Shown here: positions 4,611 to 61,448 of the stretch, piece after piece
Layout of the letters: each line of letters starts with the position of its first letter
How positions within the stretch are numbered: position 1 is the stretch's first letter
Assembly (NCBI GenBank): GCA_905221605.1
Contig: CAJNDS010002095.1
Location: forward strand, 566,001-630,000
DNA length: 64,000 bases
From: Symbiodinium natans
Taxonomy: Eukaryota; Sar; Dinophyceae; Suessiales; Symbiodiniaceae
Direction of reading: 5' to 3'
Made by a program: the position numbers and the translations under genes
Notes under the pieces: generated by a model
Told to the model about the DNA's origin: nothing
The model's input: the letters and a program-made list of their open reading frames with translations, nothing else
Databases searched by the model: none

Positions 4611-4675
4611 GAAGCAGCGGCTGCAGACGATCCTTCAGCGCCCGGACGAAACCAGGGCCCTGGTCATCGGAGATG
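4611..4675 (+). CDS. Exon candidate, ALVIGDG motif
   Basis: Acceptor GGACAG|GAA; donor GAGATG|GTTTAGGG lies exactly at the repeat edge. Reads KQRLQTILQRPDETRALVIG then D and part of Gly. The ending resembles the P-domain motif (GDGxND) of P-type ATPases, with the intron inside the motif. An alternative open minus frame exists, and no partner exon was found. Confidence 0.4.
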
Positions 4676-4767
4676 GTTTAGGGTTTGGGGTTTAGGGTTT
4701 AGGGTTTGGGGTTTAGGGTTTAGGTTTGGGGTTTAGGGTTAGAGTTTAGGGTTTGGGGTTTAGGGTT
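4676..4767 (+). repeat. Telomere-type tract (TTTAGGG/TTTGGGG)n
   Basis: Units alternate TTTAGGG and TTTGGGG. Its first bases form the presumed donor of exon 4611-4675. Confidence 0.95.
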
Positions 4768-5039
4768 ACACACTAACGGAATAGCTTTTAAAATTCCGGA
4801 AGATCTGGCCCGAAAATTCGTGGGCAAGGCCCGATTTGGGTTCCAGCGGAAAAGTTGAAATCAGCTGTGTGGAGACAACAATAACCCCTGTGTTTCTTAA
4901 TGTTTAGGGTTTAGGGTTTAGGGTTTAGGGTTTAGGGTTTAGGGTTTAGGGTTTAGGGCTTTGGGATTCTCGTGGTAGGTGGGTATTTTCCTAGCCCCAG
5001 GCACCAGGCTCGACTCGAGACTGCTCGGCCCGGAGCTGC

Positions 5040-5192
5040 TGAACCCAAAAACCCTAAACCCTAAACCCTAAACCCTAAACCCTAAACCCTAAACCCCAAA
5101 CCCCAAAAAGCCCTTGAACGGCCCCTCCTCCTCCTCCCTAAGCCCCAAACCCTAAACCCTAAACCCTAAACCCCAAACCCCAAAAAGCCCTT
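5040..5192 (-). repeat. Telomere tract with a duplicated 70-bp block
   Basis: Two copies of a block holding CCCTAAA units, two CCCCAAA units and the unique phrase AAAGCCCTTGAACGGCCCC with CTC repeats. The unique phrase is the 3' end of exon candidate 5189-5240. Confidence 0.92.
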
Positions 5193-5240
5193 GAACGGCC
5201 CCCCCTCCTCCTCCTTCTTGAGCTCCTGGTCATCGAGGGC
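5189..5240 (-). CDS. Exon candidate, acidic
   Basis: Acceptor AATGAG|GCC; donor AAGG|GCTTTTTGGGG (GC type). Reads ALDDQELKKEEEGGPFK. The last 30 bases and the start of the following repeat are duplicated at about 5099-5130. Confidence 0.45.
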
Positions 5241-5275
5241 CTCATTGGGCCGCCAAGCCCGGGGTGGAGGAGCTG

Positions 5276-5390
5276 AGGGTTTAGGGTTTAGGGTTTAGGG
5301 TTTAAGGGTTTCAGGGTTTCAGGGTTTCAGGGTTTAGGGCTTAGGGTTTAGGGCTGCAGGGTTTCAGGTTCTCAGGGTTTAGGGTTGCTA
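5276..5390 (+). repeat. Telomere-type tract, TTTCAGGG variant
   Basis: TTTAGGG units followed by several 8-bp TTTCAGGG units. Confidence 0.93.
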
Positions 5391-5699
5391 AGGCTCGTAA
5401 GAGGCATAAGGGCTCTGAGGGTTCTAAAGGATATGGTATATGGGAAGGTTCTGAGGGTCATGCGTAAAGGTTTCCAGGGTCATAAACGTCACAAGGGCTA
5501 GAAGGAATCTGAGGGTTCTAAGGGATGTAAGCAACGGGCTCCTCGAGGATGTAAAGGCCGTACGGGTTACATGGGAGAAACAAAAAAGGGGTTGCGACGT
5601 GAGGCTGCCGGAACTTCAGAATTTAGGGTTTATAGGGTTTATAGGGTTTAGGGTTTAAGGTTTAGGGTTTAGGGTTTTAAGGTGTTTAAAGGATCTTCG

Positions 5700-6290
5700 A
5701 GAAAGTCGGTGTCTGGGGGTTTACTAGTACTATTTGCGAAGAAGAACCCAAAAATGAAAGATCATATTCCCCTTATGAGGAAGAACACATGTATTTTGTT
5801 TAGGTTCAGGGGGGTTTAGGGTTTAGGGTGTTTCGGGTTTAGGGTTCAGGGTAGTTCCCGACTTGAAGTTCAGGGATGGGGGTCAGTCGGGGTTTGGGGT
5901 GAAGGGATTGGGCGGGGGGGGGGGGGGGGGGGGGGGGGGGGCGGGGTGGGGGGGGGGTGGGGCGGGGGGGGGGGGGGAGGGGGGGGGCGGGGCTTAGAAG
6001 CCCCCTAGTAGTCTTCTGAGCAGGTTTTAAGAAGACTTAGAGTTGGGGTTAACAAGTACCCATGAACCTACAAGTAGAGTAAGGGTTCTGAGGCTTGTAG
6101 GGTCCTAAGTCTCTTCGCAGCTTTTGGGGGTTTCTAGGGTCTGCTTAGGCATCGGACTTCTTACTTAAGTGGTTTCGGGTGAAGGGCTTATGGTTTCAGG
6201 CAGAGGCCATGGGGAGACGGGTTTTAGCCCCAGCGTTTTAGATCAGGAAATGGTTGAAGGTTTCAGGTTACCGCTCAATGGGGACAGCCA
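5700..6290. other. Non-coding, poly-G block and decayed repeat
   Basis: Apart from the poly-G block I see only decayed TTTAGGG-like sequence. Confidence 0.5.
5911..5994 (+). repeat. Poly-G block
   Basis: About 80 bases of nearly uninterrupted G with a few T, C and A. Sits in a 450-bp stretch with no exon-like frame. Possible G-quadruplex; run length may be an assembly estimate. Confidence 0.95.
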
Positions 6291-7004
6291 ACGACGTTAA
6301 ATCCCAAACCCTGAAGCCCTCTTGCCGCCAAAAGATCCATTCAGGTACCTGCGTTGCATACTTGGGGCTCTCGAGTTGTACATACAATGATGGGGTTCTT
6401 AGGGGGAGGGGGGTGCAAGGGTAGGTAAGCCAAGGTTCCTGAATACTCCCTACTACGCCCCAAGGCTCAAAAAGCTTCCCTAAGGTTACCCAGGTACCTG
6501 CTCCCCATAAACCCCCAAACCCTAAACCTTAAACCCTAAACCCTAACCCCAAACCCTAAACCCTACTCCCTAAGCCCTAAACCCTAAACCCCTCCCTAAA
6601 AGGACCCATATAATACAAGGCACCCAGGGGGTTTAGGGCGGCGGGGTCTTGAGCCGAACCCTGAACCCTGAACCCTAAACCCTAAACCCCAAACCCTAAA
6701 CCATAGTTCAGTCCCAAAGGAAGCGGAAGCCATTCAACAGCATTCCTCCCAAACCGCGAGCGTCCAGAGAGCTGACTAAGCCTTCTCCTAGGGCTCTGAA
6801 GACTCTTGCTTAAGGGTTTTAGGGGCCCACATGCTTTCATGCATAAGAATTTTTGGGGGCTATGTTGAGCGTGGGCCTTAAGCCCTCCAGCCCTGAAACT
6901 GAAACCCTGAGCCTCAGAATCCTCGAAGTCCTAGACCTGGCTCTCAGCATCTTCTGGTAGCATTGAGGGTGCTCGAAGGCACGACTCAGGGCGCACCACG
7001 TTTC

Positions 7005-7118
7005 CCTGACCCCTCAACCCTCAACCCTAAACCCTAAACCCCAAACCCCAAACCCTAAAAAAAACTAAACCCTAAACCCTAACAAACAAAACTAAACCCT
7101 AAACCCGAAACCCCAAAC
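7005..7118 (-). repeat. Telomere-type tract with AACAAA slips
   Basis: CCCTAAA units interrupted by A-rich slips such as CCCTAAAAAAAACTAAA. Confidence 0.93.
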
Positions 7119-7153
7119 CACAGAGAAGCGGCTGTCACCACGTTGCCCGACAG

Positions 7154-59749: not shown

Positions 59750-59815
59750 TTTAGGGTTTAGGGTTTAGGGTTTAGGGTTTAGGGTTTAGGGTTTAGGGTT
59801 TAGGGTTTAGGGTTT
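59750..59815 (+). repeat. Telomere-type tract (TTTAGGG)n
   Basis: Nine perfect units. Confidence 0.97.
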
Positions 59816-60133
59816 AGCAATTCTTCAGCAAACATTGCTTTTGGACTTTAAACTTAAGTCCTCGGCCCTAAACTCCCACGCAAGACTGGCGCAAGCAAAC
59901 TGCCCTAGTTGATGGTAAGACTAGCTTTCTAACCCCTCCCTCCCCTTAGCCCCCTGGGGTTTCCGCCCCCTAGCCCCCAGCAAACAAGGAACTACAACTG
60001 AAGCTCAAAAAGAAACCTCAACCAACCCTAAACTCTAAACCCACACCTTAAGCCTAGAAAGACTCACTCTGTAGTACCCTGTAGAATATTCAACTGTATT
60101 GGGAAAACGGGGGGAGGGGTGATGGATAGATAG

Positions 60134-60545
60134 TTGAGTTGTACCTTCGAGCTTAAGCCCCTAAGCCCTGAATCGCGGCTCCTTTCCCGACTTGTGGATT
60201 GGGGCTTAAGGTGCAGCATCCTATATCATGATCCGTATGCCTATGGTCGGCCTTGGCTCCTCTGGCCATCTGTCCCAGGCGCCTTGTCTCGTCATAACTG
60301 GGCCACGTGCCCTTCATGCACTCCCGACAGCCGTGGCCCTGCCTCTCCCCCGGCCCTTGCCTCCTCTCGCGGGGGTGGAATTCCTCCTTGGGCCTGTTCT
60401 GCTGCTCCGCCCCCCGTTGCGGGGTCATCTGGGGTGAGTGCCCCCGACAAAAGCCTGGGCCGTCAAGGCAGTAGCAATGGATCCGAAGACGGCACCCACC
60501 ATATGGGTGACCGGGTTGTTTCTCCCGGCGCCCAGAAGTGACTTG
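60134..60545. other. G+C-rich unique segment, coding status unclear
   Basis: A 135-codon plus frame and shorter frames on both strands (for example CRECMKGTWPSYDETRRLGQ on minus). No telomeric tract interrupts it. I cannot decide strand or family. Confidence 0.4.
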
Positions 60546-60947
60546 GCTTCCTTCAGGCCCACCACATGACTACCAAGGGGCTTAGGGCTGAGAGTTTAGC
60601 ACCCCTAAACCCTTAAAACCCCTGAAACCACTAAAACCCCTGAAACCCCCAAAGCCCCTAAAACCCCTAAAGCCCCTCAAGCCCCTAAAACCCCAAAAGC
60701 GCCCAAAAGCCCTGAAGCCCCCAAAGCCCTTCAACCCCAAAAAGGGGTTTAGGACAACAAAAAAAAGGTGCTCCATTGCAGGGCCCAAGCCCTCAACCCC
60801 ATAAACCTCGGCGCGCTGCGGTAACTCTGAGAGCTTTAGAGTTTAGAGTTTAGGGTTGAGCATTTAGGGTCTCGGGTTCGATTCTGCACACTCTCCTCCG
60901 CACATAGCGGGGTAGAAGAACAAGAATGACATGGACCTCCACCCTCA

Positions 60948-61059
60948 CCCCAAGGGGTCCATGTACCTAAATGAGGAATACTTGGGCCTAAACAGGTACC
61001 TCCTATTTAGGCACTTTGGGGCCTAAGTATATAGTATTGAGGTACATGGACCCTGAGGG
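60948..61059. mobile_element. MITE family E
   Basis: Ends CAAGGGGTCCATGTACC and GGTACATGGACCCTGAGGG. Its right end is next to the donor of exon 61067-61127. Confidence 0.87.
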
Positions 61060-61066
61060 TCAATGC

Positions 61067-61127
61067 ATGCCGTCGAGAGGCCATGCAGCAGCGGAGGATT
61101 TCTTCAAACATGACCTGAAGCTTCTGC
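61067..61127 (-). CDS. Exon, unknown helical protein
   Basis: Acceptor GACCAG|GCAG, donor GGCAT|GCATTG (GC type). Reads QKLQVMFEEILRCCMASRRH. The donor is next to the end of family-E element 60948-61059. Confidence 0.52.
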
Positions 61128-61171
61128 CTGGTCCAAGGTTTAGGGTTTAGGGTTTAGGGCTTAGGGTTTAC

Positions 61172-61232
61172 CTGGAGCCGACAGGGCATTGAGAGTCAGG
61201 GACGACCAGGATGACCAGGTGGATCGCAAGCC
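61172..61232 (-). CDS. Exon, hydrophobic, telomere-unit acceptor
   Basis: Acceptor GTTTTAG|GGC is part of the repeat tract; donor GCTCCAG|GTAAAC. Reads LAIHLVILVVPDSQCPVGS. In the same orientation as 61067-61127 but downstream of it by sense only if the order is reversed, so they may be different genes. Confidence 0.48.
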
Positions 61233-61309
61233 CTAAAACCCTACACCCTAAACCCCAAACCCTAAACCCTAAACCCTAAACCCTAAACCGCGCTGTCTTT
61301 TGGTTTTAG

Positions 61310-61448
61310 GTTGTTCTTGGGTTTCCAAATGCCAAGACTCAAGGTCGGAAATGCCAGCGTGCCTGCATTTATGGCTCATAACCTCTCGAAATACAAGGGT
61401 ATGGAAGTCATGATTCTGGGCACCTTGATGCTTTGCGTTGGCCTTTAA
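61310..61448 (+). CDS. Terminal exon, 45 codons, hydrophobic end
   Basis: Acceptor GTTTTAG|GTTG, then LFLGFQMPRLKVGNASVPAF, MAHNLSKYKG, and a hydrophobic end MEVMILGTLMLCVGL before TAA. Likely the C-terminus of a membrane protein (inference). Not interrupted by repeats. Confidence 0.58.

Follow-up and report, generated by a model that had tools for sequence, protein, structure and literature searches.

We consider it likely that telomeric insertions in the genome of the dinoflagellate Symbiodinium natans, which probably originate from break repair with target duplication, become introns when the duplicated target contains an AG|G motif. The analysis centers on a stretch of 64,000 nucleotides (the window), i.e., positions 566001 to 630000 of contig CAJNDS010002095.1, which has a length of 678,530 bases and is called C1783 in the following. 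The sequence (TTTAGGG)3 has 1,185,204 matches on the forward strand and 1,184,385 on the reverse strand of the genome (overlapping matches counted), compared to 41 and 33 for the reversed control. The total of about 2.37 million matches in a dinoflagellate-type genome of 759,417,921 bases (2,543 contigs) corresponds to about one match per 320 bp. About 27% of the window is telomere-like, degenerate telomere units are common in it, and neighboring tracts have the same orientation about as often as expected by chance (125 of 231 tract pairs, 118.6 expected). The overall composition is as follows:

1 to 64000, no strand assigned: the window, with 540 TTTAGGG and 638 CCCTAAA units and 232 tracts of at least 12 nt, of which 97 are G-rich and 135 C-rich on the plus strand

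The gene for PRP8, a protein that is essential in other eukaryotes, served as test gene. A family search for its PROCN domain gave a single match in the genome, on contig C1079. A PRP8 query protein was aligned to 30 kb of this locus, and the resulting chain of 48 pieces was edited to 46 junctions by dropping two pieces (one that matched by chance and one duplicated fragment of an exon), adding one exon, and trimming several ends by hand. Splice sites were taken from those alignments that scored no more than 3 points below the best one; G[TCA], AG, and a G right after it earned a bonus (GT was slightly favored), and tracts were not considered in this choice. An intron of the form G[TCA]..AG was obtained at 41 of the 46 junctions, and the other five, which lack these motifs, were excluded from the counts.

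One PRP8 exon is interrupted by a telomeric tract. After residue 174 the exon encodes FPPFDDEEP, followed by a C-rich tract with in-frame stops and then by PPFDDEEPPLDYGDN. The tract has a length of 66 nt and lies between two 25-bp copies of coding sequence, CCTCCTTTTGACGACGAGGAGCCAC upstream and CCCCCTTTTGATGACGAGGAGCCAC downstream. Deletion of GAGCCACATTCAAACCC...TTTTGATGACGAG (C1079:516436-516531, 96 nt, GA..AG, next base G; the 3' end of the intron is GATGACGAG) joins GACGAC GAG to GAG CCA CCG, restores the protein sequence FPPFDDEEPPLDY, and leaves the message unchanged at the sequence level. The predicted donor and acceptor represent the same place in the two copies, one in each, and at the two positions at which the copies differ it is the downstream copy that would be intronic. 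As PRP8 is essential in other eukaryotes, this exonic tract is very probably spliced out as an intron. A 29-bp duplication with a G-rich tract was also found at the end of the PRP8 exon before residue 1845; here the donor is part of the copy, and the acceptor actually used is located farther downstream.

Two loci on C1783 have the same anatomy, and each adjoins a segment on the same strand that has a coding score of 11.2 or 10.5:

C1783:421807-421867, minus strand: T1, a tract with a 27-bp duplication (one difference) and a putative 95-nt intron, CCAG|GACATG
C1783:364853-364878, minus strand: T2, a tract with a 24-bp duplication (one difference) and a putative 61-nt intron, GCAG|GACATC

The tracts at PRP8, T1, and T2 are all C-rich on the sense strand. 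Flanking duplications were surveyed in 324 kb, which comprised C1783:356001-640000 (including 2,500 bases N) and C1079:495001-535000. Duplications with a local score of at least 14 were found at seven of 764 tracts, compared to a mean of 0.0 in 12 shuffled pairings. T1, T2, PRP8, and family E, an element family described below, are target-like, and the others are a tandem duplication, a C-run, and a longer local duplication beside poly-C at 581546. With wider flanks and an additional 3-kb piece of contig C1, eight of 773 tracts had such duplications, compared to 0.0 in 15 pairings; one further match of this wider survey, at 557462, reflects a repeat inside family B. In size, the target-like duplications range from 14 to 29 bp.

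The window contains short dispersed elements, several of them of the hairpin type, and three families exist in filled and empty form. Tracts are thus insertions into pre-existing DNA:

59535 to 59631, minus strand: family I element with an inserted tract and no loss of sequence (TA overlap of at most 2 bp); the empty copy is at 42383-42464
14789 to 14838, plus strand: family B hairpin element with a tract in place of about 9 bp; copies without tract are at 11267, 15846, 16443, and 37999 (minus strand)
57240 to 57341, no strand assigned: family E element with an internal tract between exact 16-bp direct repeats (57240-57255 and 57326-57341)

On the minus strand, the family E insertion has GGTTTAG at its start edge and TTTAG at its end edge. 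Family B has CTACTTGGAGG ends and is present at 11267-11422, 14680-14868, 15846-15970, 37999-38145 (minus strand), and 16443-16526; the copies at 15846 and 16443 end prematurely at a telomere tract or close to it. Further dispersed elements of the window are family A, a palindromic element of about 110 bp that is free of tracts in its three copies (11888-12002, 40976-41080, and 60949-61066 on the minus strand), and a hairpin element with CAAAGTATGTAAA / TTTACATACTTTG ends (13078-13144 and 17509-17574). Tracts are also joined directly to each other:

36511 to 36606, no strand assigned: head-to-head G-rich/C-rich junction with a direct joint at 36589/36590, in the orientation of an end-to-end telomere fusion
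56490 to 56621, no strand assigned: second head-to-head G-rich/C-rich junction, with a direct joint at 56602/56603

The tracts in PRP8 introns have a polarity. In PRP8, 26 of the 41 introns contain a total of 44 tracts of at least 12 nt, and 15 introns are without tract. On the sense strand, the median relative position within the intron is 0.26 for G-rich and 0.70 for C-rich tracts (P=2e-4). Up to 40 nt from the donor there are 11 G-rich and two C-rich tracts, and up to 40 nt from the acceptor 11 C-rich tracts and one G-rich tract (Fisher 2e-4). A corresponding spacing is present on C1783, where the sequence between two neighboring tracts measures 60-160 nt in 161 of 221 C-then-G pairs, but in only 49 of 221 G-then-C pairs (Fisher 3e-27). 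Segments of about 110 nt with a C-rich tract before and a G-rich tract after them thus recur along the contig and in the window, and some have a coding appearance. The same holds for C1783:356001-566000 alone (119 of 165 versus 33 of 166) and for the window alone (36 of 47 versus 15 of 47; Fisher 2.6e-5). The lengths of the C-then-G segments in 284 kb of C1783 peak at 80-140 nt, and the PRP8 exons have a median length of 73 nt; the peak can be explained by exons of about 73 nt plus about 20 nt on either side. The C-then-G segments also have a higher G+C content (0.587 versus 0.517), and their coding score is above that of shuffled sequences (P=3e-9, 170 segments), which is not clearly so for the three remaining classes, with 58-68 segments per class (P=0.09-0.16). 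On C1783, a stricter codon scan retrieved 30 segments at a score of 10, which have ten C-rich and four G-rich tracts upstream and two C-rich and 11 G-rich tracts downstream (P=0.006).

The preliminary description of this DNA had claimed that the repeat itself doubles as splice site, G|GTTTAG serving as donor and TTTAG|G as acceptor, and had named ten sites in the window. All five donors of the standard form, 4675(+), 7207(+), 8300(-), 33731(-), and 56400(-), indeed have G|GTTTAG at the named base, and all five coincide with a tract edge. For the GC donor at 49469(-), G|GCTTAGGG is present, but there is no tract of at least 14 nt at that place. Two of the four acceptors, 19137(-) with GGGTTAG|G and 61232(-) with GGGTTTTAG|G, lie in repeat, each at the degenerate end of a tract whose G-rich sequence is on the same strand, whereas the other two are outside of the repeat and beyond C-rich tracts: 20056(+), CCTTTAG|G, is located a few nt past a CCCTAAA tract and is not a TTTAGGG unit, and 61310(+), GGTTTTAG|G, follows a C-rich tract at a distance of about 20 nt. 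No gene model underlies the ten sites. They carry little weight, because GGTTTAG and TTTAGG occur 1,125 and 1,303 times on both strands of the window, more than a quarter of which is telomere-like. A real pattern is that four of the six named donors adjoin unique segments, 87-118 nt long, that have a C-rich tract on one side and a G-rich tract on the other:

4585 to 4674, plus strand: exon-like segment between C-rich 4506-4584 and G-rich 4675-4767, coding score 9.2, adjoining the donor at 4675
7107 to 7205, no strand assigned: segment between C-rich and G-rich tracts, adjoining the donor at 7207
8301 to 8418, no strand assigned: segment between C-rich and G-rich tracts, adjoining the donor at 8300
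56403 to 56489, minus strand: exon-like segment between C-rich and G-rich tracts, coding score 9.2, adjoining the donor at 56400

PRP8, the one gene in which introns could be located by protein homology, speaks against the unit itself as splice site. None of the 41 donors is GTTTAG, a single acceptor (1/41) reads TTTAG|G and is located 15 nt beyond a C-rich tract, and G-rich tracts are nearly absent beside acceptors. The nearest tract of at least 12 nt is 7 nt away from the splice site at the donor as well as at the acceptor side, and tracts are absent from all 7,540 exon bases located between mapped introns. In PRP8, therefore, the TTTAGGG unit is not the splice site, and in general it probably is not normally so. 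The 41 donors are GC (19), GT (12), and GA (10), and 40 of the 41 acceptors are AG|G, which agrees with dinoflagellate splice sites as described in the accessible part of PMC11453091. A recurring appearance of PRP8 donors on C1079, GCTCCTTG, GAGCCTCG, and GTTCCTTG, perhaps represents an extended donor motif. The second part of the earlier claim, that an exonic tract can be excised as an intron, fared better. It is borne out, as far as can be judged from sequence, by PRP8 and the two matching loci, but it is the duplicated target that would supply the splice sites, and on the sense strand the tract is C-rich, opposite to the proposed orientation.

The tract edges were analyzed as well. Among 201 tracts of at least 14 nt, 31 start with GGTTTAG, compared to 28.7 expected. 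Of 177 tracts of at least 18 nt, 96 have a clean 5' edge and 96 a clean 3' edge; 24 of the clean 5' edges begin with GGTTTAG (13.7 expected, P=0.005) and 22 with GGGTTTA, while TTTAG or TTTAGG is found at 18 of the clean 3' edges and is thus depleted (27.4 expected, P=0.03), and TTTAGGG is found at 33. The 5' edges are biased to G, and the acceptor-like 3' edge is not favored. By inference from the accessible part of PMC2246262, a 5' G bias would also result from telomerase priming on G-ended breaks. Excision of the G-rich tracts of at least 18 nt at the proposed sites did not yield longer reading frames than frame-scrambled controls. The numbers of open reading frames (ORFs) of at least 80 codons were 55 versus 55.6 on the plus and 64 versus 63.8 on the minus strand, and those of at least 100 codons were 25 versus 25.8 and 30 versus 27.9, respectively.

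In the most likely mechanism, staggered breaks are repaired with telomeric DNA that would be made by telomerase or captured. When the tract comes to lie in an exon and the duplication contains AG|G, the upstream copy would provide the donor and the downstream one the acceptor. Splicing would then take out the tract together with one copy, as an intron of the form G[A/C/T]..AG, and restore the message, as the PRP8 case indicates at the sequence and protein level. Tracts within introns would be retained according to their orientation, G-rich ones on the donor side and C-rich ones on the acceptor side, which is the pattern of PRP8 and, as spacing, of C1783. This is probably so because C-rich repeats contain neither AG nor GT and are suited to the acceptor side, while G-rich repeats contain decoy AGs near acceptors. 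The G-rich and C-rich arms of an intron might also pair with each other, or CTAAAC might serve as branch point. An origin from telomerase would fit the preference for G at the 5' edges, and empty sites were compared for three insertions. A broader version, in which telomeric DNA would be a genome-wide generator of introns by break repair, target duplications of 14-30 bp, immediate AG|G splicing, and a polarized G-rich...C-rich frame whose arms or branch-point-like CTAAAC help to define exons of about 70 nt, is a tentative proposal that is somewhat more doubtful than not.

Several results weigh against the view that duplicated AG|G targets turn telomeric tracts into introns, or against parts of it. 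A flanking duplication is absent at most tracts. Among the tract-born introns, only the one in PRP8 can be compared with a reference protein; the case for T1 and T2 comes from coding statistics, and a Pfam search with the peptide of T2 had no match. The motif counts of PRP8 are not independent of the site choice, because G[TCA], AG, and the following G received a bonus. On C1079 alone the spacing contrast is 8 of 16 C-then-G versus 3 of 16 G-then-C pairs (Fisher 0.14, rank test 0.002). The two HSP90 copies that were inspected by eye have few tracts and show no clear polarity: four tracts of at least 12 nt comprise two G-rich tracts in mid-intron and two C-rich tracts upstream of exons, and of three G-rich pieces of 10-11 nt one follows a donor and two lie in acceptor halves. 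(HSP90 also occurs in tandem arrays, with four near-equal matches on contig C258 and five on C1224, and multi-exon copies are located elsewhere.) The mean coding score of the C-then-G segments is 7.1, compared to 16.0 for the PRP8 and HSP90 exons, which are the training set itself, and because it is so far below that of the training exons, many of these segments may not be exons. The stricter codon scan gave 30 segments at score 10 and three at score 15, versus 22 and five for the reversed sequence. CAGG in the first 50 nt was not more common on the sense strand (49 versus 48 on the opposite strand of 163), nor was AGG before the confident coding segments (10 versus 10 of 28). Finally, one coding segment has a possible donor AAG|GTGGGTTTAGGG at its end, 2 nt from a tract, so that a donor at the very edge of a tract may be used in some genes.

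Four alternatives have to be weighed against this background. That the telomere unit itself supplies donors and acceptors inside G-rich tracts would agree with the 46 of 96 clean 5' edges that start with GG(G)TTTAG, with the GGTTTAG...TTTAG edges of the family E insertion on the minus strand, and with the possible AAG|GTGGGTTTAGGG donor at one coding segment end. However, the zero of 41 GTTTAG donors in PRP8 and its sole TTTAG|G acceptor outside of a tract, the avoidance of acceptors by G-rich tracts, the depletion of TTTAG/TTTAGG at 3' edges, the lack of a gain in reading frames upon tract removal, and the C-rich sense orientation of all three duplication-flanked exon tracts make it improbable. 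A stronger rival is that the tracts are plain interstitial telomeric insertions without any role in making introns, that older introns tolerate them in the orientation that does not disturb splicing, and that the PRP8 case is a rare accident. Most PRP8 tracts are indeed intronic with unique sequence on either side, the classes of joints resemble those of mammals (accessible part of PMC2246262), and filled sites also occur in non-coding elements; but three loci in 324 kb share the anatomy of a duplication plus AG|GA, and we regard this explanation as rather unlikely.

The remaining two alternatives have less in their favor. If the genome had been fused from small telomere-capped fragments, introns would be fusion joints, and the order C-rich/exon/G-rich would reflect the telomere orientation of linear fragments. 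The peak of the C-then-G segments at 80-140 nt would fit, as would the close opposite-orientation neighbors on C1783, since five of the six pairs no more than 12 nt apart, the two junctions in the window included, are G-then-C. Yet the PRP8 splice sites are intact and at least 7 nt away from tracts, 15 of 41 introns are tract-free, and families B, I, and E retain both element halves at the joints, so this scenario is very improbable. Short tandem repeats are hard to assemble, and thus an artefact of assembly or sequencing has to be considered. But about 2.37 million matches on both strands, the many degenerate units, and the substitutions between several of the tract-flanking copies leave almost no room for it. 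The conversion of telomeric insertions into introns by way of a duplicated AG|G is the explanation that we favor.

Further exon-like segments in the window are the following:

5174 to 5275, minus strand: exon-like segment with C-rich/G-rich brackets, coding score 14.4, with an internal repetitive GGAGG stretch
17808 to 17955, minus strand: exon-like segment with C-rich/G-rich brackets, coding score 13.6
23920 to 24038, minus strand: exon-like segment with C-rich/G-rich brackets, coding score 11.8
38991 to 39146, minus strand: exon-like segment with C-rich/G-rich brackets, coding score 11.4
40204 to 40294, minus strand: exon-like segment with C-rich/G-rich brackets, coding score 10.7

There are 28 confident coding segments; of the 26 listed, 22 are on the minus strand, as expected for one-directional gene clusters, and seven are in the window, including the two that adjoin the named donors at 4675 and 56400. 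The C-then-G segment 59628-59747 is part of the family I element. Open frames are in slight excess among 422 spacers (220 versus 204 +- 9.4 in shuffles). In 284 kb of C1783 there was no excess among C-then-G segments of 80-140 nt (218 versus 218.8 of 252), and 27 of 58 G-then-G segments of 140-260 nt are open (16.4 +- 3.1 in shuffles). A Pfam search gave nothing better than E = 0.012 among 260 distinct stop-free segments of the window; these were derived from 289 segments of at least 44 amino acids, 269 of which passed a complexity filter, and shorter exons lie outside this coverage. Rfam and tRNA scans of the window had no matches, and neither did a comparison of 13000-21000 with plasmid records or PDB searches with three exon peptides. 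One ORF has homologs:

13403 to 13972, minus strand: ORF with Symbiodiniaceae homologs, homology span 13427-13960, with pieces of tract at both of its ends and what looks like a frameshift near 13420

A profile search retrieved 27 homologs besides the ORF itself and P0002, and the named ones are from Effrenium voratum, Durusdinium trenchii, and Symbiodinium pilosum. Eimeria, another protist rich in TTTAGGG, was rejected as source of the DNA in view of these homologs and of the absence of CAG repeats from the window. A scan of prokaryote contigs for the telomere repeat yielded at least 119 stretches, 80 of them listed, and the richest of 124 loci had 6% repeat; among the 80 listed loci, short TTTAGGG arrays are found in many genomes of Pedobacter and further Bacteroidota. 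In a scan of viral sequences, a word from the hairpin element gave five matches, which were screened for repeat content only. The window furthermore contains a region with few tracts and TA microsatellites (50270-54090, of which 52001-54000 is without any tract), a tandem duplication of a 77-bp unit with 96% matches and a tract inside (5059-5214), and uninterrupted runs of G or C, 24-27 nt long, at 5914-5940, 38589-38612, and 41361-41384.

The origin of new introns is an old open question. If our explanation is true, telomerase or the capture of telomeres would be a source of introns that does not depend on a transposon, and the polarity of the tracts would make telomeric DNA part of the marking of exons. 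In the literature searched, as far as the accessible parts of the sources go, we found no description of telomeric tracts as introns or of their polarized arrangement around exons. Several known systems have features in common with the one described here. Mammalian interstitial telomeric sequences are inserted at double-strand breaks (accessible parts of PMC2246262 and PMC7215372). They are likewise short internal arrays with empty sites and with joints that are unchanged, deleted, or duplicated (accessible part of PMC2246262); the classes found here are no change or 2 bp in family I, a deletion of about 9 bp in family B, and a duplication of 16 bp in family E. In contrast to mammals, there is one (TTTAGGG)3 per about 320 bp in S. 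natans, polarized tracts are present in many introns, and some tracts lie, as probable introns, between copies of coding sequence.

Introners have reportedly been treated by Huff 2016 and Roy 2023. To our knowledge, terminal inverted repeats or a transposase are known from only part of the introner families. No terminal inverted repeats were seen by eye in the three inserts (PRP8, T1, and T2), and no transposase search was made. Similar inserts may form introns in several genes, as judged by homology for PRP8 and by coding score only for T1 and T2. Like introners (accessible part of PMC9860276), the inserts combine insertion with target duplication and would co-opt splice sites of the duplicated sequence, and the length of the PRP8 message is predicted to stay unchanged. 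Unlike introners as described there, the insert is a telomeric repeat and not a transposon family with terminal inverted repeats, and the duplications comprise 24-27 bp instead of 3-9 bp. The introner elements of Amoebophrya (accessible part of PMC7789003) share the dinoflagellate lineage, direct repeats at the intron ends, and odd donors; they differ in that no inverted repeats were seen here and that the donors are GT, GC, or GA with AG|G acceptors. Telomere-like TTTAGGG repeats are also dispersed in the genome of another protist, Eimeria; these are banded and linked to CAG repeats, which are absent from the window, and a link to introns is not mentioned in the accessible part of PMC9131526. 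In Amorphochlora, simple-sequence DNA is found in new introns at AG|G proto-splice sites (accessible part of PMC12730881), as would be the case here, with the difference that its repeats are AT and those of S. natans are telomeric.

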